This document shows, piece by piece, positions 14,943 through 26,218 of a stretch of 64,000 nt of DNA. Below the pieces are notes generated by a model. That model was not told where the DNA came from. It saw only the letters and a program-made list of their open reading frames with translations, and searched no databases. Source of the stretch: Winogradskyella pacifica (GTDB lineage Bacteria; Bacteroidota; Bacteroidia; Flavobacteriales; Flavobacteriaceae); the NCBI RefSeq assembly GCF_013403915.1, contig NZ_JABFDI010000002.1:124001-188000 (forward strand), given 5' to 3'. Both the position numbers and the translations under genes were made by a program. Each line of letters begins with the position of its first letter. Positions within the stretch are counted from its first letter, which is position 1.

Positions 14943-16211
14943 CTATACTAAAAACTGGAATAAATCGGGTTTGTCATTTAGGTAATCTCCATAGAAATTA
15001 TGAAGTTTCATTTTAGTAATTAATGGCTCTAAATCATCAGGTGATTTTAATTGTAAACCAACGACTGCGACATCATTTTCGCGATTGACTTTTTTAGTGT
15101 ATTCAAAATGCGTAATATCATCTGTAGGTCCTAAAATATCAACTACAAAATCACGTAAAGCACCTGCGCGTTGCGGAAACTTAATAATAAAGTAATGCTT
15201 AAGATTGGCGTAGAGAAGTGCACGTTCTTTAATTTCTGCCATTCGTGTGATATCATTATTGCTGCCACTAATAACACAAACCACGTTTTTACCTTTAATT
15301 TCTTCAGAAAATTGGTCTAATGCACAAAGACTTAAAGCTCCTGCTGGTTCAACAACAATAGCATCTTTATTATATAGGTCTAAAATCGTCTGACAAATTT
15401 TACCTTCGTCCACCGTAACTACACGATGTAGTGTCTCTTTACAAATAGCAAAACTTAAATCACCAACACGTTTAACCGCAGCTCCATCTACAAAACTATC
15501 GATGGTGTCTAACTCCGTATTTTTATTAGCCCTAATAGAGGTTAACATAGCCGGAGCACCTTTGGGTTCTACGCTAATGATTTTTGTTTGAGGTGATAAG
15601 ATTTTAAAAACAGAGGACAATCCTGCTGCGAGTCCACCACCACCAACTGGTACAAATACATAATGAATGGGATGCGTTTCTGCTTGGTCAATAATTTCTA
15701 AACCAACGGTTGCTTGTCCTTCAATAACTTTTTCATCATTAAAAGGATGGACAAACGTTTTGTTAAGTTCCTCACTTTGTTGCATGGCTGCATGGTAAGC
15801 GTCGTCAAACGTATCTCCAACTAAAACAACGTCAACAAAATCTTCTCCGAACATTTTTACCTGCTCAATCTTTTGATTTGGAGTAGGGGAAGGCATAAAA
15901 ATAGTGCCTTTTATTTTTAAAAGCTTACATGAAATCGCCACACCTTGCGCATGGTTTCCTGCACTGGCGCACACAATTTCATTTTCAATTTGAGAAGGAC
16001 TCAAAGAGGCTATTTTATTATAAGCACCACGGATTTTGTAAGAACGCACAACTTGTAGATCTTCTCTTTTGAAATAAATGTTGGCATCAAAATCTTTAGA
16101 ATATCTGGCGTTTTTAATTAAAGGTGTTACTGACGCAATTCCTATTAATTTTTCTGCTGCAGCTTCAATAGCTTTTAATGTTGGTCTGTATGTAGTTTTG
16201 GTTTCTTCCAT
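14943..16211 (-). CDS. ilvA: Threonine dehydratase (biosynthetic)
   Basis: PLP enzyme that deaminates threonine to 2-oxobutyrate, the committed step to isoleucine. The PLP-lysine motif is VRSYKIRGAYNK; CASAGNHAQGVA and the phosphate-binding PVGGGGLAAGLSS follow. The C-terminal 90 residues (from LKHYFIIKFPQRAGALRDF) form a single ACT-like regulatory domain, the short form seen in Bacillus IlvA, so isoleucine inhibition is likely. I start at ATG 16211 (422 residues). An in-frame ATG at 16289 would translate two repeat elements and is rejected. The hairpin TTCCC...GGGAA ends 6 nt before the chosen start. Last gene of the ilv operon. Confidence 0.95.
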   Translation of the reverse strand: MEETKTTYRPTLKAIEAAAEKLIGIASVTPLIKNARYSKDFDANIYFKREDLQVVRSYKIRGAYNKIASLSPSQIENEIVCASAGNHAQGVAISCKLLKIKGTIFMPSPTPNQKIEQVKMFGEDFVDVVLVGDTFDDAYHAAMQQSEELNKTFVHPFNDEKVIEGQATVGLEIIDQAETHPIHYVFVPVGGGGLAAGLSSVFKILSPQTKIISVEPKGAPAMLTSIRANKNTELDTIDSFVDGAAVKRVGDLSFAICKETLHRVVTVDEGKICQTILDLYNKDAIVVEPAGALSLCALDQFSEEIKGKNVVCVISGSNNDITRMAEIKERALLYANLKHYFIIKFPQRAGALRDFVVDILGPTDDITHFEYTKKVNRENDVAVVGLQLKSPDDLEPLITKMKLHNFYGDYLNDKPDLFQFLV

Positions 16212-16217
16212 GCTCAC

Positions 16218-16305
16218 TTCCCTTGAAAAAGGGAATCTCTTATTTATTAGACCTATCAGGTTTTGACTTCGACTACACTTAGCCATCATAAAACCTGATA
16301 GGATA
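16218..16305. repeat. Two palindromes between ilvC and ilvA
   Basis: TTCCC-TTGAAAAA-GGGAA (16218-16235) sits 6 nt before the ilvA ATG in the mRNA, presenting GGGAAG as a possible ribosome-binding site in its 3' arm. GACCTATCAGGTTTT...AAAACCTGATAGGAT (16250-16304) is a larger palindrome with the CTTCGACTACACTTAG element in its loop. Together they fill the spacer to the ilvC stop. Confidence 0.75.
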
Positions 16306-16314
16306 ATTTTTTTC

Positions 16315-17814
16315 TTACGCTAAAACAGATGCTTTTACATCATCAGTTTTAATTACTTTCATTGCAGTCATTGCCGCACGCAAACGTTGACCAACAGCTT
16401 CAATAGGATGATTTCTAATCGCGTCATTAACAGCGATTAATTCAATATTATCAACCCCTGTTGTTTTAGAAAATGATTGACCAATAATAGATGTATCCAC
16501 CGTTTTCATGAAATCCGTTAATAACGGTTTGCAAGCATGATCAAATAAATAACAACCATATTCTGCCGTATCAGAAATGACCCGGTTCATTTCAAATAAT
16601 TTTTTTCTTGCGATAGTATTGGCGATAAGTGGTAGCTCATGTAAAGATTCGTAATAAGCAGAATCTTCAATAATGCCTGCGCTTACCATCGTTTCGAAAG
16701 CGAGTTCAACACCAGATTTTACAAAAGCAATTAGTAATACACCATGATCAAAATACTCTTGTTCTGTAATGTGATCTGAAGTTAATTCTGTTTTTTCAAA
16801 GGCAGTTTCTTCAGTTGCAGCTCTCCAAGTTAATAAGTTGATATCGTCATTTGCCCAATCTTCCATCATAGTTTGAGAGAAGTGACCAGAAATAATATCA
16901 TCCATATGCTTTTCAAAAAGCGGACGCATAATACCTTTTAATTCTTCAGATAATTCGAATGCTTTTAGTTTAGCAGGATTAGATAAACGATCCATCATGT
17001 TGGTAATTCCACCATGCTTCAATGCTTCGGTAATCGTTTCCCAACCAAACTGAATTAATTTAGCAGCGTAACCAGGTTCTATACCTTCTTCAACCATTTT
17101 ATCAAAAGATAAAATGGCTCCGGTTTGTAATAAACCACAAAGAATAGTCTGTTCTCCCATTAAATCACTTTTCACTTCTGCAATAAAAGACGATTCTAAT
17201 ACACCTGCACGATGACCACCAGTTGCAGCAGCATAAGCTTTAGCCTGAGCCCAACCTTTTCCTTCAGGATCATTTTCAGGATGTACTGCAGTTAATGTCG
17301 GAACTCCAAAACCTCTTTTGTATTCTTCTCTTACTTCAGTTCCAGGACATTTTGGTGCCACCATAATTACGGTTAAATCCTCACGGATTTTTGTGCCTTC
17401 TTCAACAATATTGAAACCATGAGAATAGCTTAATGTTGCCCCTTTTTTCATTAAAGGCATTATCGCTTTTACAACATTGGTATGTTGCTTGTCTGGTGTT
17501 AAGTTTAACACTAAATCTGCCGTTGGTATTAATTCTTCATACGTACCAACAGTAAATCCGTTAGAGGTTGCGTTTTTGTAAGAATCACGTTTTTCATCAA
17601 TAGCTTGCTGACGCAACGTATAAGAAATGTCTAATCCGGAATCGCGCATATTTAATCCTTGATTTAGACCTTGAGCACCACAACCAACAATAACGATTTT
17701 CTTTCCTTTTAATGCGTTTACGCCATCTTCAAATTCTGAAGCGTCCATAAAACGACATTTTCCTAACTGATCTAATTGTTCTCTTAATGGTAATGTGTTG
17801 AAATAATTTGACAT
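16315..17814 (-). CDS. ilvC: Ketol-acid reductoisomerase (class II)
   Basis: Converts acetolactate and acetohydroxybutyrate to dihydroxy acids with NADPH and Mg. The 499-residue length and the duplicated helical C-terminal domain make it the long class II form of E. coli type. The Rossmann motif is [32 protein letters not shown] and [21 protein letters not shown] carry cofactor and active-site residues, and [11 protein letters not shown] the metal ligands. The start is set at ATG 17814 ([14 protein letters not shown]); the in-frame ATG at 17880 adds a low-complexity hydrophobic stretch and is not supported. It follows ilvN by 112 bp containing an inverted repeat. Confidence 0.96.
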
Positions 17815-17830
17815 TGTTTTTTTGTTTTTG

Positions 17831-17897
17831 AGAAAATAGAAGAAGGATAAAAGAGTAAAGACACTGTAATTGTATGTCATTAAATCTTCTATTTTCT
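17831..17897. repeat. Inverted repeat AGAAAATAGAAGA in the ilvN-ilvC spacer
   Basis: Perfect 13-bp arms at 17831-17843 and 17885-17897 are separated by 41 bp. A related pair lies in the next spacer upstream (18479-18564), so this is a repeat family rather than a one-off. It could fold as a long mRNA stem between the two cistrons. Confidence 0.65.
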
Positions 17898-17926
17898 TTA
17901 TTCTATTCTCTTATTTCTTTTTTAAT

Positions 17927-18457
17927 TTAATGTTGCAACGCTTTAAGCATTGTTGATATTTTCATTTCGTCTTTAGTTACAGCAATGCGTCCTGAACGTG
18001 TAAATTGCATGATTCCGAAAACGGTTAATTCTCTGTGTAATAAATCTATTTCTTCTTTTCTGCCTGATTTTTCTATAACGAAGAAATCACGATTTACAGT
18101 GACAATTCTAGCGTTGCTTTCCTTAATTATATTTTGAATTTGACGTTCATCAAACAACAAGTTAGATCTCATTTTGAAGATGCAAGATTCTTGGTAAATG
18201 ATTTCTTCCTCCGTATGATAATAGGCTTTGATAACTTCGACTTGCTTTTCAATCTGACCTTGAATCTTTTTCATTTGAGATTCGGTAATATTGACGACAA
18301 TGGTAAATCTTGAAACACCGTCGATTTCTGATGGTGATGTGTTTAAACTTTCAATATTCATGTGTCTTCTTTGGAATATTGCAGAAATTCTATTCAACAA
18401 TCCAATGTTGTTTTCCGTATAAATTGAAACGGTATATTGTTTGTTTTCTGTACTCAT
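17927..18457 (-). CDS. ilvN: Acetolactate synthase small (regulatory) subunit
   Basis: Regulatory partner of IlvB, giving valine feedback control and full activity. The 176-residue length is standard for the short class. An N-terminal ACT domain is visible (YTVSIYTENNIGLLNRISAIFQRRHMNIESL, quoted in part: NNIGLLNRISAIFQRR), and the C-terminal half, from about residue 80, is the second ACT-like domain ending in FTRSGRIAVTKDEMK. It lies directly downstream of ilvB in the same transcript, with 112 bp between, filled by a repeat. The identification is firm from both sequence and position. Confidence 0.94.
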   Translation of the reverse strand: MSTENKQYTVSIYTENNIGLLNRISAIFQRRHMNIESLNTSPSEIDGVSRFTIVVNITESQMKKIQGQIEKQVEVIKAYYHTEEEIIYQESCIFKMRSNLLFDERQIQNIIKESNARIVTVNRDFFVIEKSGRKEEIDLLHRELTVFGIMQFTRSGRIAVTKDEMKISTMLKALQH

Positions 18458-18478
18458 TTTTTTGAGATTATAGATAAA

Positions 18479-18564
18479 AGAAAATAGAAAACAGACTCAT
18501 ATTTAGTTCTATTTTACTTTTTTCTCTCATTCGACTTTGTTCTTTTCTCTGTATTCTATTTTCT
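18479..18564. repeat. Inverted repeat AGAAAATAGAA in the ilvB-ilvN spacer
   Basis: Arms of 16 bases at about 18479-18494 and 18549-18564 pair with one mismatch (AGAAAATAGAAAACAG with CTGTATTCTATTTTCT). Same core as the repeat between ilvN and ilvC. The spacer is otherwise T-rich and non-coding. Confidence 0.6.
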
Positions 18565-18569
18565 TCGTT

Positions 18570-20306
18570 TTACTCTAATCTTATGTCTGAAACACTTGCT
18601 CCGGTTGGAATCATTGGGAATACATTACCTTCCTTTTCCACCCTAACTTCTAAGAAGTAAGGACCTTCACAGTCAATCATTTCTTTTACAGCAGCTTTTA
18701 AGTCTTTACGTTCGGTTACTTTTTGTGCTTCAATAGAATAGCCTTTTGCAATGGCTACAAAATCTGGGTTGACCATTTCGGTAGAAGCATAGCGTTTATC
18801 GAAAAATAACTGTTGCCATTGACGTACCATACCAAGGAATTCGTTATTTAATACCACAATTTTTACAGGGACTTTCTGTTGAAAAATAGTCCCTAATTCT
18901 TGAATGGTCATTTGATAACCTCCATCACCAGCAATCATTACAACTTCTCTATCTGGTGCTGCCATTTTTGCACCAATAGCTGCTGGTAAAGCAAATCCCA
19001 TAGTTCCCAATCCGCCAGAGGTAATATTACTTTTGGTTTTGTTGAATTCGGCATAACGACAAGCAGTCATTTGGTGCTGACCAACATCACTTACAATGGC
19101 AGCATCTCCTTTGGTTTGAATGTTGATTTCTTTCAACACTTCAGCCATAGTTAAGCCTTCTTTTGTAGGATGTAAATCGTCTTTAATGACTTTTTCGTAT
19201 TCTATTTTATATAAATCTTTAAATTTTTGATGCCAATCATTATGAGAATTTTCATTCAATAAGGGTAATAAGCTTTTTAGACTGGCTTTTGAATCCCCTA
19301 AAACGGCAACATCGGTTTTTACGTTTTTATCTATTTCGGCTGGATCAATATCAAAATGAATGATTTTTGCCTGTTTTGCATACGTTTCTAAATTGCCTGT
19401 GACACGATCATCGAAACGCATTCCGATAGCAATTAAAACATCACAATCGTTAGTTAAAACATTTGGAGCATAATTACCGTGCATACCAACCATCCCAACA
19501 TTTAATGGGTGCGAAGTAGGAATTGCTGAAGCTCCTAAAATGGTCCAAGCTGAAGGAATTCCAGCCTTTTCAATAACAGCTTTAAATTCTTCTTCTGCCT
19601 TTCCTAAAATGACTCCTTGTCCCCAAACTACTAATGGTTTCTTGGCGTTATTAATAAGTTCTGCTGCAGCTTTTAGAGAATTTTCATCTGTATCAGGAAC
19701 TGGTTTATAACTTCTAATACCTTTACATTTTTCGTATTTAAAATCGAATTCTTCAAACTGAGCATCTTTTGTAATGTCTATTAAAACCGGTCCCGGTCTT
19801 CCGCTTCGTGCAATGTAAAATGCTTTTGCGAAAGCCTCAGGGATTTGAGATGCTTTAGTAACCTGGCAATTCCATTTGGTGACTGGTGTAGAGATTCCGA
19901 CAATATCAGTTTCTTGAAACGCATCGCTTCCTAATAAATGCGAACCTACCTGACCAGTGATACAAACCATTGGTGTAGAATCGATTTGAGCATCAGCAAT
20001 ACCTGTGATTAAATTGGTGGCTCCAGGTCCAGATGTTGCCATGCAGACACCAACTTTACCTGAAATACGAGCATAACCTTGTGCAGAATGTGTGGCGCCT
20101 TGCTCATGACGTGTTAGCACATGATGAATTTTATCTTGATACTTATATAATTCGTCATAAACTGGCATAATGGCTCCACCAGGATATCCATATAGTATAT
20201 CAACACCTTCGGCTAATAAACATTTTATAACTGCTTCACTACCTGAAATACGTTCTGTAGTTTCTGCAGTTTTAACTTGATTTTGCATAGTTTGAGTTTC
20301 TTTCAT
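18570..20306 (-). CDS. ilvB: Acetolactate synthase large subunit
   Basis: ThDP- and FAD-dependent enzyme condensing pyruvate with pyruvate or 2-oxobutyrate, the first common step of the branched-chain pathway. Of 578 residues. Visible are the ThDP glutamate in VLTRHEQGATHSAQGYAR, GYPGGAIMPVYDE, the FAD region GMRFDDRVTG, and the ThDP/Mg motif MIAGDGGYQMTIQEL...VLNNE. Start at ATG 20306 (MKETQTMQ), with a second in-frame ATG at 20288. The hairpin TTCCC...GGGAA ends 8 nt before the first start, which favours it. It is the second gene of the ilv operon after ilvD. Confidence 0.96.
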   Translation of the reverse strand: MKETQTMQNQVKTAETTERISGSEAVIKCLLAEGVDILYGYPGGAIMPVYDELYKYQDKIHHVLTRHEQGATHSAQGYARISGKVGVCMATSGPGATNLITGIADAQIDSTPMVCITGQVGSHLLGSDAFQETDIVGISTPVTKWNCQVTKASQIPEAFAKAFYIARSGRPGPVLIDITKDAQFEEFDFKYEKCKGIRSYKPVPDTDENSLKAAAELINNAKKPLVVWGQGVILGKAEEEFKAVIEKAGIPSAWTILGASAIPTSHPLNVGMVGMHGNYAPNVLTNDCDVLIAIGMRFDDRVTGNLETYAKQAKIIHFDIDPAEIDKNVKTDVAVLGDSKASLKSLLPLLNENSHNDWHQKFKDLYKIEYEKVIKDDLHPTKEGLTMAEVLKEINIQTKGDAAIVSDVGQHQMTACRYAEFNKTKSNITSGGLGTMGFALPAAIGAKMAAPDREVVMIAGDGGYQMTIQELGTIFQQKVPVKIVVLNNEFLGMVRQWQQLFFDKRYASTEMVNPDFVAIAKGYSIEAQKVTERKDLKAAVKEMIDCEGPYFLEVRVEKEGNVFPMIPTGASVSDIRLE

Positions 20307-20314
20307 GTTTTTAC

Positions 20315-20332
20315 TTCCCGTTAAATTGGGAA
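20315..20332. repeat. Hairpin repeat directly before ilvB
   Basis: TTCCC-GTTAAATT-GGGAA, with the 3' arm in the mRNA reading CGGGAAGT 8 nt before the ilvB ATG. Same family and placement as the hairpins before gltD, argF', argC and ilvA. Confidence 0.7.
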
Positions 20333-20458
20333 TCTCATTTTAAAATCTGTCATCTCTTAGGACGTTAGATTGGTTATTCAATTCTTATGTTTTAATTCTC
20401 TTATAATCGAAAGGCTTTCTGCTTTATCGACTAGAAAATTCTTTTTTTTAATGCTATT

Positions 20459-22138
20459 TTAGAATTCGTCAGTGACACATCCTTTAGATGCTGATGATAC
20501 TGTTTTAGCGTATTTATAAAGGACTCCTCGTTCAAATTTTAATTCTGGCGCTTTCCAATTTTGACGTCTTTTCTGAAGTTCTGCTTCAGAGACTTCTAAT
20601 GATATTGAATTGGTTTCTGCATCTATCGTAATAATATCTCCATCTTTTACGACGGCGATTGTGCCTCCTTCTTGTGCTTCGGGTGTAATATGACCAACAA
20701 CAAAACCATGTGTTCCACCAGAGAAACGACCATCTGTAATTAAAGCCACATCTTTACCTAAACCTGCTCCCATAATTGCAGCCGTTGGTTTTAACATTTC
20801 TGGCATTCCTGGTCCACCTTTTGGGCCTTCATATCTAATGACGACCACATCTCCTTTTTCAACTTTACCATCTCTAATACCATCGTTTGCGGCATATTCT
20901 CCTTCAAAAACCTTGGCTTTTCCTCTAAAGCATAAGCCTTCTTTTCCTGTAATTTTAGCCACACTGCCTTCGGTAGCTAAATTTCCGTAGAGCATTCTTA
21001 AGTGTCCTGAAATCTTAATAGGTTCTTCAATTGGTTTTATAACGTCTTGTCCTTCTTTAAGATCTGGTACATCTAATAAGTTTTCTGCAATTGTTTTTCC
21101 TGTGACAGTTAAACAATCTCCGTGAATCATACCTTTCTTTAAAAGATATTTTAATACTGCAGGAATTCCTCCGACGGCATGAACATCTTCCATTAAATAT
21201 TTTCCGCTAGGTTTTAAATCTGCTAAAAATGGCGTGTTATCACTGATAGCTTGAAAATCTTTTAGGGTAAAATCTATTTGCGCGGCTCTGGCAATGGCTA
21301 AAAAGTGTAATACGGCATTTGTAGAACCTCCTAAAATAGTCACTAGTCTTACTGCATTTTCTAAAGATTTTCTAGTAATAATATCTGAAGGCTTTATATC
21401 TTTTTCTAATAATAAACGTAAAGCTTCACCGGCTCTTACGGATTCTTTTTTCTTAGCATCGCTTAACGCGGGATTTGAAGAATTAAAAGGTAAAGTCATT
21501 CCTAAAGCTTCAATAGCAGAAGCCATAGTATTTGCCGTGTACATACCTCCGCAGGCTCCAGCTCCAGGACATGCTTTTTCAACGATACTTTGATATTCAG
21601 TTTCGTCCATAGTTCCAGCAACTTTACTTCCCCACGCTTCAAAAGCAGAAACAACATCTAACTTTTTTCCTTCGTGGCAGCCAGAATCGATTGTACCTCC
21701 ATAAACTAGGATACTTGGTCTATCTAAACGAATCATGGCCATTAATGCTCCAGGCATATTTTTATCACATCCTACGACTGTGATTAGCCCATCATAACTC
21801 ATGGCTTGGACTACGGTTTCCATTGAATCCGCAATAATATCTCGAGAAGGCAATGAGTAACGCATTCCTGGTGTTCCCATAGATATACCGTCGCTCACAC
21901 CAATGGTGTTAAAAATTAACCCAATCACATCTTCGTTTTTTGTACCTTCTTTAACCAGTTTGGCTAAGTCATTAAGATGCATATTACAAGGATTACCTTC
22001 GTAACCTGTACTTGCAATACCGACGATTGGTTTAAAGAAGTCTTCTTTGGTTAATCCGATAGCATGCAGCATGGCTTGAGCCGCTGGTTGCGTTGGATCT
22101 TGTGTAACTGTTTTACTGTATTTGTTTAATTCGCTCAT
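20459..22138 (-). CDS. ilvD: Dihydroxy-acid dehydratase
   Basis: Iron-sulfur dehydratase forming the 2-oxo acids of valine and isoleucine. The 559-residue length is standard. The cluster cysteines lie in [22 protein letters not shown] and [35 protein letters not shown] is the conserved C-terminal signature. First structural gene of the ilv operon. Its ATG lies 231 nt beyond the stop of the isoleucine-rich leader and about 178 nt after the attenuator hairpin, so all five ilv genes should be controlled by that element. The protein itself is ordinary; the interest is the leader. Confidence 0.96.
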
Positions 22139-22315
22139 AATAAATAGGTGTGCAACATCGATTTGCTAAATCTAAATTACTTGATATACTATGTTTAGTT
22201 ATTAATATTCTATTTCTTAATCTAAATTCAATACTACAAACATCAATTTAACCTTCTGTTAATCAATATTTTAAGTCTTGTTTATTATGATGTTCAAGTA
22301 TGTGAATTTTTTATA

Positions 22316-22348
22316 TAAAAAAAGCCTTCCGGAAAAGGAAGGCTTTAA
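22316..22348 (-). terminator. Attenuator terminator of the ilv operon
   Basis: Read on the - strand, AAAGCCTTCC-TTTTCC-GGAAGGCTTT is a perfect 10-bp stem followed by a run of T residues and TATAT. It lies between the leader peptide stop (22370) and ilvD (22138). A strong intrinsic terminator inside the 5' leader of a biosynthetic operon, straight after an isoleucine-rich peptide, is the hallmark of transcription attenuation. The A-run on the other strand side makes it look bidirectional, but no + strand gene ends nearby. Confidence 0.88.
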
Positions 22349-22369
22349 ATAAATCTATATTTTAATTTA

Positions 22370-22444
22370 TCATAACATTCCTTGGCTTCGCGAAATAATC
22401 ACGATGCTAATAATAGAAATGATATTGATAATTTGGTTTTTCAT
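22370..22444 (-). CDS. Isoleucine-rich leader peptide of the ilv operon
   Basis: A 24-codon ORF with an ATG start, beginning MKNQIINIIS and ending SRSQGML, then TGA. Nine of 24 codons are Ile and one is Val, most in a block from residue 5 to 17. The stop lies 21 nt before the terminator stem at 22316-22348, the usual geometry for ribosome-controlled attenuation. A stalled ribosome on the Ile block would leave the SRSQGML region free to pair with downstream RNA. The antiterminator pairing was not worked out. It is far too short to be found by length-based gene calling. The name ilvL would be apt functionally; no homology to enterobacterial ilvL is claimed. Confidence 0.85.
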   Translation of the reverse strand: MKNQIINIISIISIVIISRSQGML

Positions 22445-22481
22445 ATACTGAATCAAATATTGTACATTTTATTTTAGAATC

Positions 22482-22489
22482 CAAATTTA
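22482..22489 (-). promoter_or_regulatory. Candidate -7 element of the ilv operon promoter
   Basis: On the - strand the sequence reads TAAATTTG, an exact match to the Bacteroidota -7 consensus TAnnTTTG. It lies 38 nt upstream of the leader peptide ATG, giving a leader RNA that would start near 22475. The -33 region shows only TTT where TTG is expected, so the match is partial. Confidence 0.45.
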
Positions 22490-22625
22490 AAAACGCGAAG
22501 TACACCTAAAAGTATGTGTTATAGGGATTTAATTTTTTGTTAAAGTTATACTAAACTCGAGCTTGGAAAAATCCATAAGCCTGAAATACCGTATATATAG
22601 TATAACCAATAAATAAAATTTAATT

Positions 22626-23267
22626 ATGAAATTAAAAATGAATAGAATATTAGGAACCGTAACATGTATGTTATTTTTAGTCTTAACAGCATGTAACGAT
22701 GGAAAAAAAGAAGCAGAAAAGATGAAAATGGATGCTGAAAAGGTTGAAATGGAGGCTACGCAGAAGAAAGACATGGAGATGAAAAAGATGGAGGAAGAAA
22801 AGAGAGTAATGGCCATGGAAACCAGTATTGCAGGTAAAGCAATGTCTAATGATGATTTGTCTACTTTAGTAGCGGCATTAAAAGCTGCAGATTTAGCAAC
22901 AATGTTATCAGAACCTGGAAATTATACTGTTTTTGCGCCATCTAATCAGGCCTTTTCTAAATTGCCAGAAGGTACGGTAGATAACTTGCTGAAGCCTGAG
23001 AATAAAGAAGGTCTTCAAAATGTTTTAAAATACCATGTAGTATCTGGGAAAATAACTTCGGATAAACTCATGGAAGCTATTAAAGGAGGAAAAGGTAAAT
23101 ATACTTTTAAAACTGTAGGTGGTGAGGAATTAACGGCTATGATGGATGGTGATCAATTTATGATACAAGATTCTAGAGGTAAAAAATCTCAAGTCGTTCA
23201 AGGAAATGTTGATGCATCAAATGGAATAGTATACATTATCAATGATGTATTGATGGCTAAGAAATAA
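22626..23267 (+). CDS. Fasciclin-domain lipoprotein
   Basis: A 213-residue lipoprotein: basic N-terminus, hydrophobic stretch, and lipobox LTAC with Cys near residue 23. A charged, methionine- and lysine-rich helix follows (about residues 25-70, repeats of KMEE/MEKK type) and probably acts as a spacer or coiled coil. Residues from about 75 to the end are one fasciclin (FAS1/beta-Ig-H3) domain, with LSTLVAALKAADLATML, the H1 motif NYTVFAPSNQAFSKLP, and the YHVVSGK H2 motif. FAS1 domains mediate adhesion or ligand binding. It stands alone between the ilv leader and the PUL regulator and has its own terminator. An alternative ATG at 22638 would shorten the signal slightly. Exact role unknown. 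Confidence 0.9.
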   Translation: MKLKMNRILGTVTCMLFLVLTACNDGKKEAEKMKMDAEKVEMEATQKKDMEMKKMEEEKRVMAMETSIAGKAMSNDDLSTLVAALKAADLATMLSEPGNYTVFAPSNQAFSKLPEGTVDNLLKPENKEGLQNVLKYHVVSGKITSDKLMEAIKGGKGKYTFKTVGGEELTAMMDGDQFMIQDSRGKKSQVVQGNVDASNGIVYIINDVLMAKK

Positions 23268-23291
23268 TAACATTTAATGACTAATAGTTTA

Positions 23292-23320
23292 AAGACTCAA
23301 CTTCGGTTGGGTCTTTTTTT
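23292..23320 (+). terminator. Intrinsic terminator after the fasciclin gene
   Basis: AAGACTCAAC-TTCG-GTTGGGTCTT, a 10-bp stem with one G-T pair and a stable TTCG tetraloop, followed by eight or more T. It lies 24 bp after the stop codon. Confidence 0.9.
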
Positions 23321-23410
23321 TATATCACGAATTATGTATCTAAGTGCAGTCACGTTGAATGAAATTCTTATTTTTAAAGCGTTTTCATAAAATTTGTATA
23401 TTGTTGTTAC

Positions 23411-26218
23411 ATGAAAAAAATATTATTTTTTTTACTTTTCTTAATCGTTTTTTCTTCAGAGTGTTATAGTCAATTCTCTCCAAACATCCATAATTTTACG
23501 TTGGCTGAGTATAAAGCAGGTAATCAAAACTGGGGTATTTCTAGAGCTGATAATGGTAAAGTCTATGTTGCTAACAATAGTGGATTGTTAGAATATGACG
23601 GTTTGGTTTGGAAATTCCATCAATTACCGAATAAGACTATCGTGAGATCTGTTTTGGCAGTTGATGATATTGTCTATACAGGATCTTATGAAGAATTCGG
23701 GTATTGGAAAAAAGATGAATTCGGATATCTTAAATATTATTCTTTAAGTGATAGTGTACTTGACTTAATCTCTCCGAACGAAGAAATATGGGAAGTTGTA
23801 AGCTTTAACGGTAAAATCATCTTTAGATCATTTCTGAATATTTATATCTATGATTTTGAGAACGTCATTCAATTAAGTCCTGGTTCGGTTATAATTTCTT
23901 GTAGCGTCGTTGAAGACAACTTATATATAAGCACCTTAAATCAAGGTATATTTAAATTGAAAGAAAAGGCACTAGAACCTTTTTATTCTAATGAGTTATT
24001 ATTAGATACTAAAATTGTTTCTGTCAATACATACAAGGATAAACTTTTATTAATGACGTCACTAAAAGGAAGTTTTTTCTTGGATAATGGTCGGCTAATT
24101 CCAACGAATTTTGAAATTGATGAACAGATACGTCTGCATCAACTCAATGCATTTTCCATTTTAGGTAATGGAGATATGGTTTTTGGAACCATAAAAGACG
24201 GGGTCTTCTTAACGGATAATAATGGGAACTCTAAGTTTCATATAAGTAAAGAGAATGGCTTACTTAATAATACGGTTTTAGGTCAATCTATAGATAAAAC
24301 AGATAATCTTTGGCTGGGTTTAGATAATGGTATCGCTAATATTGAACTTAATAACAGTAACTATTTTTTTAATGATGTTTCTGGTAAGTTAGGCGCCGTT
24401 TATGATGTAGTTAAATATAAAGGTGTCATTTATATTGGTACCAATACAGGGCTTTTTAGGTTGGATAAAGACGATAAATTAAAATTTATTGAAGGTTCAC
24501 AAGGTCAGGTGTGGGATTTGGAGATTATTGAAGATGAACTGTTTTGCGGTCATAATGAAGGTACATTTATTGTGGACGAGGATAAAATGATTCCTATCTC
24601 TACTTATACGGGTGGTTGGACCATTAAAAAAGTACCAGAACGAGAGCATACGTATATACAAGGTACATATTCTGGTTTAGTGCGGTTTGAAAAGGTATCT
24701 GGCCAATGGCAGGTGAAACACCTTGGTAAAACCTCAGTTCCTTCACGTTTTTTAGTGTTTGAAAATCCAAATACTGCCTGGGTGGCTCATGCAACCAAAG
24801 GTGTGTCTAAAATTAGTTTTGATGATAATTATGATGAGATCACTGAAGTCAAGGAATACCATGACAAAGGCTTAAGTTCTAACTATAATGTGCGCGTTTA
24901 TAATATTAGGAACAATATTAGTTTTAAGTCTAATGAAGGCTGGCAAAAATACGAACCGATTTTAGATTCTATAGTCCCTTATGAGTTACTCAATGATTTG
25001 TTAGGTAAGAATAGTTACATTATTTCAGAAGACAATACGGATGTTTTTGCCTTAAAAAATAAAGGTGGTTTTATAGAATTTAAATCATTTGATACTACTC
25101 GGGACGATTTTTATTTAAACGATATTTTTTTAAAGAACAGGTATATTGTAGGTTACGAAAACGTCTCTAAGATTAAAGACTCTATTTATGCTTTAAATCT
25201 CGATAATGGTTTTATGATGATAAATAATACGTCTATTGCAGGCGTTAATTTATATAAGCCAAACATAGAGACTATTTCAATAAGTGGAGTTCCTCTTAGT
25301 GTTTCTGCTATTGAAGATGAATTGGTAGGTTTTAAATTTAAAGAAAGTGTTGCTGTAGAATTATCGTCTTCAAAATCTCTAAATCATTTTTTTGAGTATC
25401 GTATTTCAGAAGCAAATGTTGATGAAGGGAATGATATATGGTATACAATTGATGGTAATAAAGTAGAGTTTTCAAACCTTATAGATGGTGATTATACTAT
25501 TGCTTTTAGAACTAGTGATAACGCGGGTAATGTGTCATCGATTAAATCTTTGCGAGTAGATGTGTATCCTCCTTGGTATAGAGATACGTTAGGATATTTA
25601 CTGTATTTGCTTTTAGCAGGCTTAATCATATTTGTGTTTTACACACTTCACCATAAAAAAATAGCGAAGGAACAGCGGATCATTAAGATTAAATATCAAA
25701 AAGAGCAGCAAAAGTTATTGCGAGAAAAAACTTTAGAAAATGAAAAGCGCATCGTTCAGCTTAAAAATGAATCATTACAGAACGAAATAAAGCTTAAAAG
25801 CAAGCAGCTAGCTAATAATGCTATGGCCTTGGTTAAGAAGAATGAAACCTTACAAGACATTAAGAAGGATTTAATGATTAATAAGGATGGCTTCAATAAT
25901 TATTACTCATATAAAAAACTGGTAAAGAAGTTAGATAATTCAATTGTTCTAAAGGACGAATGGGAAGTCTTTGAGAATAATTTTAGTCAAGTACACGATG
26001 AATTTTTTGAAGCTTTAAAGGCAACACATTCTAAACTTACGCCGAAGGATTTAAAAATTTGTGCATACATCAAAATGAATTTATCTTCAAAAGAAATTGC
26101 ACCACTTATGAATATCTCAGTTAGAGGTGTTGAAACTCATCGATATCGATTAAAAAAGAAATTAAACTTAGAAAATGATATTTCTTTGATGGATTATTTG
26201 TTAAATATTAAAAATTAG
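23411..26218 (+). CDS. Membrane-anchored beta-propeller/Y_Y_Y regulator with LuxR-type HTH
   Basis: A 935-residue one-component sensor. Residues 1-21 are a signal peptide ending CYSQ. Residues from about 30 to 620 are a two-component-regulator-type propeller (repeats such as NKTIVRSVLAVDDIVYTG and DNLWLGLDNGIANIE). A Y_Y_Y domain follows (FFEYRISE...DYTIAFRTSDNAGN), then one membrane helix near residues 727-748, a coiled coil rich in K and E to about 850, and a LuxR/GerE-like helix-turn-helix from about 872 (LTPKDLKICAYIKMN... SVRGVETHRYRLKKKL). There is no histidine kinase, so it is not a classical HTCS; it probably reads an oligosaccharide outside and binds DNA from the membrane. It precedes susC by 252 bp and likely controls this PUL. 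Confidence 0.88.
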   Translation: MKKILFFLLFLIVFSSECYSQFSPNIHNFTLAEYKAGNQNWGISRADNGKVYVANNSGLLEYDGLVWKFHQLPNKTIVRSVLAVDDIVYTGSYEEFGYWKKDEFGYLKYYSLSDSVLDLISPNEEIWEVVSFNGKIIFRSFLNIYIYDFENVIQLSPGSVIISCSVVEDNLYISTLNQGIFKLKEKALEPFYSNELLLDTKIVSVNTYKDKLLLMTSLKGSFFLDNGRLIPTNFEIDEQIRLHQLNAFSILGNGDMVFGTIKDGVFLTDNNGNSKFHISKENGLLNNTVLGQSIDKTDNLWLGLDNGIANIELNNSNYFFNDVSGKLGAVYDVVKYKGVIYIGTNTGLFRLDKDDKLKFIEGSQGQVWDLEIIEDELFCGHNEGTFIVDEDKMIPISTYTGGWTIKKVPEREHTYIQGTYSGLVRFEKVSGQWQVKHLGKTSVPSRFLVFENPNTAWVAHATKGVSKISFDDNYDEITEVKEYHDKGLSSNYNVRVYNIRNNISFKSNEGWQKYEPILDSIVPYELLNDLLGKNSYIISEDNTDVFALKNKGGFIEFKSFDTTRDDFYLNDIFLKNRYIVGYENVSKIKDSIYALNLDNGFMMINNTSIAGVNLYKPNIETISISGVPLSVSAIEDELVGFKFKESVAVELSSSKSLNHFFEYRISEANVDEGNDIWYTIDGNKVEFSNLIDGDYTIAFRTSDNAGNVSSIKSLRVDVYPPWYRDTLGYLLYLLLAGLIIFVFYTLHHKKIAKEQRIIKIKYQKEQQKLLREKTLENEKRIVQLKNESLQNEIKLKSKQLANNAMALVKKNETLQDIKKDLMINKDGFNNYYSYKKLVKKLDNSIVLKDEWEVFENNFSQVHDEFFEALKATHSKLTPKDLKICAYIKMNLSSKEIAPLMNISVRGVETHRYRLKKKLNLENDISLMDYLLNIKN

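Follow-up and report, generated by a model that had tools for sequence, protein, structure and literature searches.

The ilv operon and its leader

The window analyzed here, a stretch of 64,000 nucleotides from Winogradskyella pacifica, contains an operon of genes for isoleucine and valine in the order ilvD-ilvB-ilvN-ilvC-ilvA, all on the minus strand, and a short leader region lies ahead of ilvD (Table 1). The IlvD protein shares 98% identity with its counterpart in Winogradskyella psychrotolerans. The upstream neighbor of ilvD is a divergent, plus-strand ORF (22626-23267), and therefore the hairpin that precedes ilvD is not the end of an upstream minus-strand gene, unless the 95-codon minus-strand ORF opposite this neighbor (22529-22816), which has no NCBIfam match, is real.

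Table 1. Positions of the leader features and ilv genes in the window
Feature	Position (strand)	Basis
Candidate -7 promoter element (P1), TAAATTTG	22482..22489 (-)	Read from sequence
Leader peptide ORF, stop codon included, MKNQIINIISIISIVIISRSQGML	22370..22444 (-)	Sequence; relatives alike
Element 1, predicted protector strand within the Ile codons	22415..22431 (-)	Minimum-energy fold; predicted partner 22382-22367
Element 2, antiterminator strand within the ORF, where it codes for the tail QGML, CAAGGAATGTTA	22373..22384 (-)	Duplex and partner tests
Element 3, terminator 5' arm and loop start, alternative partner of element 2, AAGCCTTCCTTT	22334..22345 (-)	Duplex
Intrinsic terminator hairpin, elements 3:4, 10 bp	22321..22346 (-)	Sequence, terminator scan
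Conserved motif between terminator and ilvD, TTGAACATCATA	22286..22297 (-)	Recurrence in relatives
TAAAAT of candidate promoter P2, 18 nt beyond TTGAAC	22273-22268 (-)	Consensus-like match
ilvD, first gene of the operon (start 22138)	20459..22138 (-)	
ilvB	18570-20306 (-)	
ilvN	17927-18457 (-)	
ilvC	16315-17880 (-)	
ilvA (block from ilvB to ilvA, 14943..20306)	14943-16289 (-)	

A first-pass annotation of this DNA had described a promoter box, an isoleucine-rich ORF, and a terminator, all upstream of ilvD, and this arrangement is indeed present, with ilvB, ilvN, ilvC, and ilvA following ilvD on the same strand. The TAAATTTG box is found where it had been placed, upstream of the leader ATG, although the distance between the two is 37 nt rather than 38 nt. 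Direct reading confirms that the leader ORF has 24 codons, 9 of which encode Ile (6 ATT and 3 ATC, with no ATA) and 1 of which encodes Val. The hairpin does follow the leader stop codon, at a distance of 23 nt rather than 21 nt, and it is a perfect 10-bp stem, AAAGCCTTCC-TTTTCC-GGAAGGCTTT, followed by a T run of seven bases (22323-22317). The description of this stem as GC-rich was generous, since only 5 of the 10 pairs are G-C. A terminator scan of positions 22100-22640 found 1 terminator where 0.1 was expected, and the leader is predicted to fold more stably than its own shuffled versions (z = -3.73).

Bacteroidota promoters have the consensus TAnnTTTG. Of 86 distinct upstream stretches, 16 have this pattern 15 to 75 nt ahead of their first leader ATG, compared with a mean of 6.0 in shuffled sequences, and this recurrence in relatives gives modest support to the assignment of P1 as the leader promoter. 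There is no Shine-Dalgarno-like run between P1 and the leader ATG in the window.

Leader ORFs and terminators upstream of ilv genes in relatives

We gathered 193 ilvD loci in three sets that overlap by a few identical loci: a family draw in which each genus is represented by a single genome (84 loci, from rounds of 30 and 54; 87 genomes matched, with G016 and G065 omitted because of a contig edge and G062 because it was split), a genus draw (29 loci, or 30 including that of the window, out of 38 matching genomes), and 80 named contigs, which are the closest 80 of at least 596. For loci in which ilvE precedes ilvD with a gap of less than 150 nt, we took the sequence ahead of ilvE instead. In three loci this sequence was too short, and their removal left 190 regions; one more (L020) is at a contig edge and has no true upstream region, which leaves 189 that are usable. 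ilvE is upstream of ilvD on the same strand in 32 loci (e.g., L012, L016, L026, L135, L138, and L139), and the attenuator is found before ilvE in L016, L026, L138, L139, and others.

Each region was searched for an ATG-initiated ORF of 12 to 38 codons with at least 6 Ile or Val residues per twelve residues, having shortly after its stop codon a hairpin with at least 4 G-C pairs and a T tract. Such a combination was found in 92 of the 189 usable regions (the named-contig part being the closest 80 of at least 596). The same search of 190 regions gave 1 positive on the opposite strand and 0, 0, 0, 0, and 0 in five rounds of dinucleotide shuffling, and therefore chance does not account for the leader-plus-terminator combination. 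When the residue requirement was changed, the 190 regions gave 1 positive for Leu, 1 for Phe/Tyr, 1 for Ser/Thr, and 0 each for Lys/Asn, Asp/Glu, and Ala/Gly. By set, the positives are 43 of 83 usable loci in the family draw (43 of 84 in all), 13 of 30 in the genus, and 37 of 80 among the named contigs (again the closest of at least 596). The named positives include Winogradskyella, Gaetbulibacter, Aquimarina, Dokdonia, Lutibacter, Zobellia, and Flavobacterium, as well as Saprospiraceae, Chitinophagaceae, and Cytophagales records. Thus, in the comparison with relatives that had been recommended, leader ORFs rich in Ile/Val are seen repeatedly ahead of terminators upstream of ilvD or ilvE, and the absence of such ORFs in relatives, which would have spoken against an attenuator, is not what these 92 regions show.

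The finder was negative in 97 of the 189 usable regions, including 17 of the 30 same-genus loci. The other 13 genus loci retain ORF and terminator together, and in the window all parts are intact. In one of the negative genus loci (L115), the leader MNIKVINIISKIRFVIISRSQGML is present and it was the terminator rule that missed the locus; another (L119) has a terminator without a leader ORF and is a possible intermediate in attenuator loss. Because of these two loci, true losses in the genus are somewhat fewer than 17 of 30.

The 102 distinct leaders (2,001 residues) contain 31% Ile, 13.8% Val, 5.9% Leu, and 1.8% Phe. It had been proposed that the leader senses mainly isoleucine and that there is no Leu block. 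This describes the window well, while "Ile plus Val" fits the composition of the family better, and based on codon content the ilv leaders seem to sense Ile and Val, with that of the window sensing chiefly Ile.

Pairing of the antiterminator with the terminator

In order for the terminator to act as a switch, element 3 would have to have an alternative partner, and element 2, near the end of the leader ORF, is the candidate. Terminator stems vary among lineages (GCCTTCC, GCCTGTATC, GCCATTC, TCCCTTT, and others), and element 2 (e.g., GGAATGGTAT) varies in step with them. In the 102 distinct attenuators, element 2 pairs with its own element 3 at a mean of -11.9 kcal/mol, compared with a mean of -8.31 kcal/mol (standard deviation, 0.25) and a lowest value of -9.14 kcal/mol in 2,000 re-pairings of elements 2 and 3 among attenuators. 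The result is the same for the 25 attenuators that have neither of the stems A and B described below: their own pairs average -11.9 kcal/mol versus -8.34 kcal/mol when re-paired, and none of the 2,000 re-pairings is as low. Tested singly against shuffled sequences, the 2:3 duplex reaches p ≤ 0.05 in 76 of the 102 attenuators. The remaining 26 include the window, in which the duplex is -8.0 kcal/mol (p = 0.08). The matching of partners across relatives supports the presence of a competing antiterminator. This is the mutually exclusive fold that the first-pass annotation had suggested seeking; the competing 2:3 pairing tracks the terminator stem across lineages.

The position of element 2, taken from the best duplex, is at or after the leader stop codon in 50 attenuators, spanning the stop in 28, and within the ORF in 24. 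In the window and its genus, element 2 ends inside the ORF, and in this genus and four Flavobacterium loci (L092, L097, L101, and L102), the motif translates as Gly-Met-Leu or Gly-Met-Val. Element 2-like DNA is thus kept as coding sequence in some lineages and as non-coding sequence in others, and since it is kept whether or not it is translated, the conserved peptide tail is best explained as nucleic acid. This bears out the earlier suggestion that the Ile-free tail is conserved because it overlaps the antiterminator strand. The predicted protector helix, in which element 1 pairs with element 2, is less certain, with a mean z of -1.8 in type A attenuators, -0.5 in type B, and -1.7 in the rest; the value for the window is -1.1, which is weak compared with shuffled sequences.

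Modeled effect of ribosome position

We modeled the chance that element 3, while element 4 has yet to be made, pairs with element 2 upstream of it, with the ribosome assumed to mask the leader through the twelfth base past the first base of the A-site codon. In the window, a ribosome stalled at any of codons 2 to 16 (counted from zero), which include all nine Ile codons, gives a predicted antiterminator probability of 0.69. Stalls in the tail give 0.57 at the first Ser, 0.20 at Arg, and ≤0.04 from the next Ser onward to the stop codon, where the value is 0.02. Without a ribosome, the modeled probability is still 0.61, which suggests that the protector arm does little in the window. Once element 4 has been made, the terminator is predicted at ≥0.89 for any ribosome position; since it is dominant as soon as element 4 exists, antitermination would have to be kinetic.

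For 106 attenuators (102 distinct), the mean modeled probabilities are 0.74 for the best Ile/Val stall, 0.46 without a ribosome, and 0.11 with the ribosome at the stop codon. The best Ile/Val stall is above both other states in 91 of the 106, and 15 are off this pattern. In the 102 distinct attenuators, the permissive zone has 1,649 codons, of which 877 are for Ile or Val, and the masking zone has 250, of which 17 are; this low number is due in part to the position of element 2 near the stop codon. The last permissive codon is 1 to 3 codons beyond the last Ile/Val codon in 80 of the 102, while the last Ile/Val codon is beyond the permissive zone in 12.

Tandem attenuators in relatives

Two attenuators are present in series in 14 loci, ten of which are in the family draw. 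In 12 of the 14 (L008, L009, L013, L016, L026, L035, L060, L142, L143, L156, L165, and L175), an attenuator with stem A (CCTTCC) is followed by one with stem B (CTGTATC-like), and the reverse order does not occur; the other two (L043 and L062) have other stems. Element 2 of A pairs with its own element 3 at -10.9 kcal/mol and with the B elements at -7.2 kcal/mol, and element 2 of B pairs with its own element 3 at -14.3 kcal/mol and with the A elements at -5.4 kcal/mol. By these predicted energies, the pairing strands of A and B do not cross.

On a quick ilvD tree of 108 proteins (L001 to L110 without the duplicates L034 and L065), single-A and single-B loci are scattered among AB loci, 28 presence/absence changes are needed, and the AB label must change three or more times, given the starred branches. 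Three loci (L062, L068, and L098) are named after other phyla, perhaps as a result of misbinning. This distribution fits, without proving, an old A-B pair with repeated loss. We regard it as an evenly balanced question whether the ancestral ilv operon of the Flavobacteriaceae had such non-crossing A-then-B gates for Ile/Val, with read-through probabilities that multiply, from which stages were later lost so that the window keeps A. If it did, close coupling of the ribosome and RNA polymerase would be needed in Bacteroidota.

A second candidate promoter downstream of the terminator

The motif TTGAACATCATA lies between the terminator and ilvD. When up to one mismatch is allowed, 59 of the 189 distinct regions contain it (the 189 include the coding stretch of L020, which does not affect the hits). 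The reversed motif gives 0 hits, the other strand gives 0, and shuffled regions give 1, 0, 0, 0, and 4. The motif occurs in 31 of 89 regions with an attenuator and in 28 of 100 without one, and 28 of 32 genus loci contain TTGAACATCAT, again allowing up to one mismatch. We do not claim a TTGAACATCATA regulon: the genome of the window contains 2 exact copies, and allowing up to one mismatch gives 48 versus 32 for the reversed pattern, and the other exact copy (L195) appears by eye to be in the coding end of a long gene.

The TTGAACATCATA motif and the TAAA block that follows it are perhaps a second ilv promoter or operator. P2 is downstream of the attenuator and, if active, would bypass it. It could be, then, that the attenuator is real but minor or decaying in this genus and that most ilv transcription starts at P2, which is compatible with the attenuator reading and which we consider a serious possibility, though one that falls short of an even chance. 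The attenuator is missing from 17 of the 30 genus loci while TTGAACATCAT is nearly always present, the leader ORF is gone from L119 although the terminator is kept, and TTGAAC-N18-TAAAAT matches a sigma-70-type site at 9 of 12 positions. However, this match is only consensus-like, as a scan found 8 such sites versus 5.0 in shuffled sequences, and the parts of the window attenuator are all intact, as are ORF and terminator in 13 of the 30 genus loci.

Leaders of other amino acid operons

We scanned other operons for any ORF of 8 to 40 codons before a terminator. Upstream of hisG, this combination is present in 30 of the 30 loci examined (36 genomes have hisG), including the genome of the window, and the leader peptides have at least 3 His residues in 29 of the 30; the peptide from the genome of the window (L304) is MTLIQLHHHFHIIAQAR. 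The hisG leaders (L285 to L314) have His runs, many end in QAR, QAS, or QAK, and many of the terminator stems contain CCCGTTTGAG. Upstream of leuA, no ORF-plus-terminator was found in any of 30 loci (L224 to L253), nor in the stretch from the genome of the window, although leuA may not be the first gene elsewhere. If it is first, the leu genes seem to be controlled in some other way.

Interpretation

We conclude with high confidence that transcription of the ilvDBNCA operon is subject to ribosome-mediated attenuation in the region upstream of ilvD. The leader ORF, the terminator, the 2:3 complementarity with its cross-lineage matching, and the positions of the Ile/Val codons are all evident at the level of sequence, while translation of the ORF, coupling of the ribosome to RNA polymerase, and a response to starvation are what these features would imply. 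RNA polymerase starting at P1 would make the leader ORF first. With ample charged isoleucyl-tRNA (and, in relatives, valyl-tRNA as well), the ribosome would pass the Ile block and enter the tail, where it would hide element 2, so that elements 3 and 4 could form the terminator. When charged isoleucyl-tRNA is scarce, the ribosome would stall in the Ile block, so that element 2 would be free and could pair with element 3 ahead of the synthesis of element 4, and polymerase would continue into ilvD. Most likely, then, an isoleucine-rich leader and a terminator together switch on Ile/Val biosynthesis genes under shortage. The earlier proposal that the classical attenuation logic works in this Bacteroidota lineage is supported by the checks of recurrence, antiterminator, and tail overlap.

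Two other explanations are very improbable. A T-box or metabolite riboswitch could govern the terminator, with the ORF incidental, as a terminator with a competing fold is also common to riboswitches. However, an Rfam scan of positions 20000-24000 found no family at its gathering score, and the seven weak matches up to an E value of 5 include no T-box or riboswitch; the T-box covariance model has no match there up to the same E value, and the best of the Rfam amino acid leader families, Phe_leader, scores 29.3 bits versus a gathering threshold of 55. The leaders of relatives have Ile/Val codons, element 2, and the terminator as their recurring parts, with no aptamer-like core recognizable by eye. 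The idea that the product of the ORF is a small hydrophobic peptide, of a membrane or toxin-like kind, whose transcript is merely ended by the terminator has in its favor a hydrophobic, 24-residue, Ile-rich peptide with a terminator close behind, but hydrophobicity alone would not demand leaders that are rich in Ile and Val and poor in Leu and Phe, this idea leaves the matching of antiterminator to terminator unexplained, and it does not fit the conservation of element 2 DNA in both coding and non-coding form.

Comparison with known systems

Classical leader-peptide attenuators are those of the enterobacterial amino acid operons trp, his, ilvGMEDA, and ilvBN, and the phyla best known for this form of attenuation are Proteobacteria and Actinobacteria. 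The element in the window would be of the same classical type, with a known mechanism, and it is the tandem form in relatives that appears to be new. Like the enterobacterial attenuators, it has codons for the end product in a short ORF, a terminator before the first gene, and a mutually exclusive antiterminator. Unlike them, it belongs to another phylum, the leader in the window has no Shine-Dalgarno-like run, the Ile (and Val) codons are not accompanied by a Leu block, element 2 is translated as the peptide's own tail, and the protector arm is weak.

Leader-peptide attenuation is textbook material, yet it has been little described in Bacteroidota. The anatomy of an attenuator is found before ilv in 43 of 83 family-draw loci and before hisG in 30 of 30, and if these leaders work as they look, leader translation and RNA polymerase movement would be closely coupled in this phylum. 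In Flavobacterium psychrophilum, a member of the same family as the window, "strong clues" have been described for leader-peptide attenuation upstream of amino acid biosynthesis operons, along with structured 5' elements before hisG and pheA that are common to other genera; the main text of that study does not contain the word ilv, and its supplementary list of elements may include an ilv leader (PMC9723704). The transcriptome of Bacteroides thetaiotaomicron is reported to contain long 5' untranslated regions, and the small ORFs in these are called "reminiscent of leader peptides" (PMC7366714). The ilvD RNA motif is placed in Veillonella only (PMC8632094). The Corynebacterium ilvBNC attenuator likewise has an upstream ORF that regulates a branched-chain operon, although in another phylum and operon, and we liken it by its description (PMC10272879, PMC11857589). 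Among the titles and opening lines of abstracts that we found, there is no recognizable account of a Flavobacteriaceae ilv leader or of a same-signal tandem, and a 2010 survey by Lopatovskaya may cover some of this ground.

The tandem form, which would read the same residues twice through pairing strands that stay separate, would make a natural RNA gate with two stages. The closest comparison is with the tandem attenuators of Salmonella mgtCBR, described as "a singular example" of ones answering different signals (PMC3641672). As in mgtCBR, the tandem ilv leaders have two short ORFs in series on one leader mRNA, but whereas the mgtCBR signals are ATP and proline (PMC3641672), both of the tandem ilv ORFs carry Ile/Val codons.
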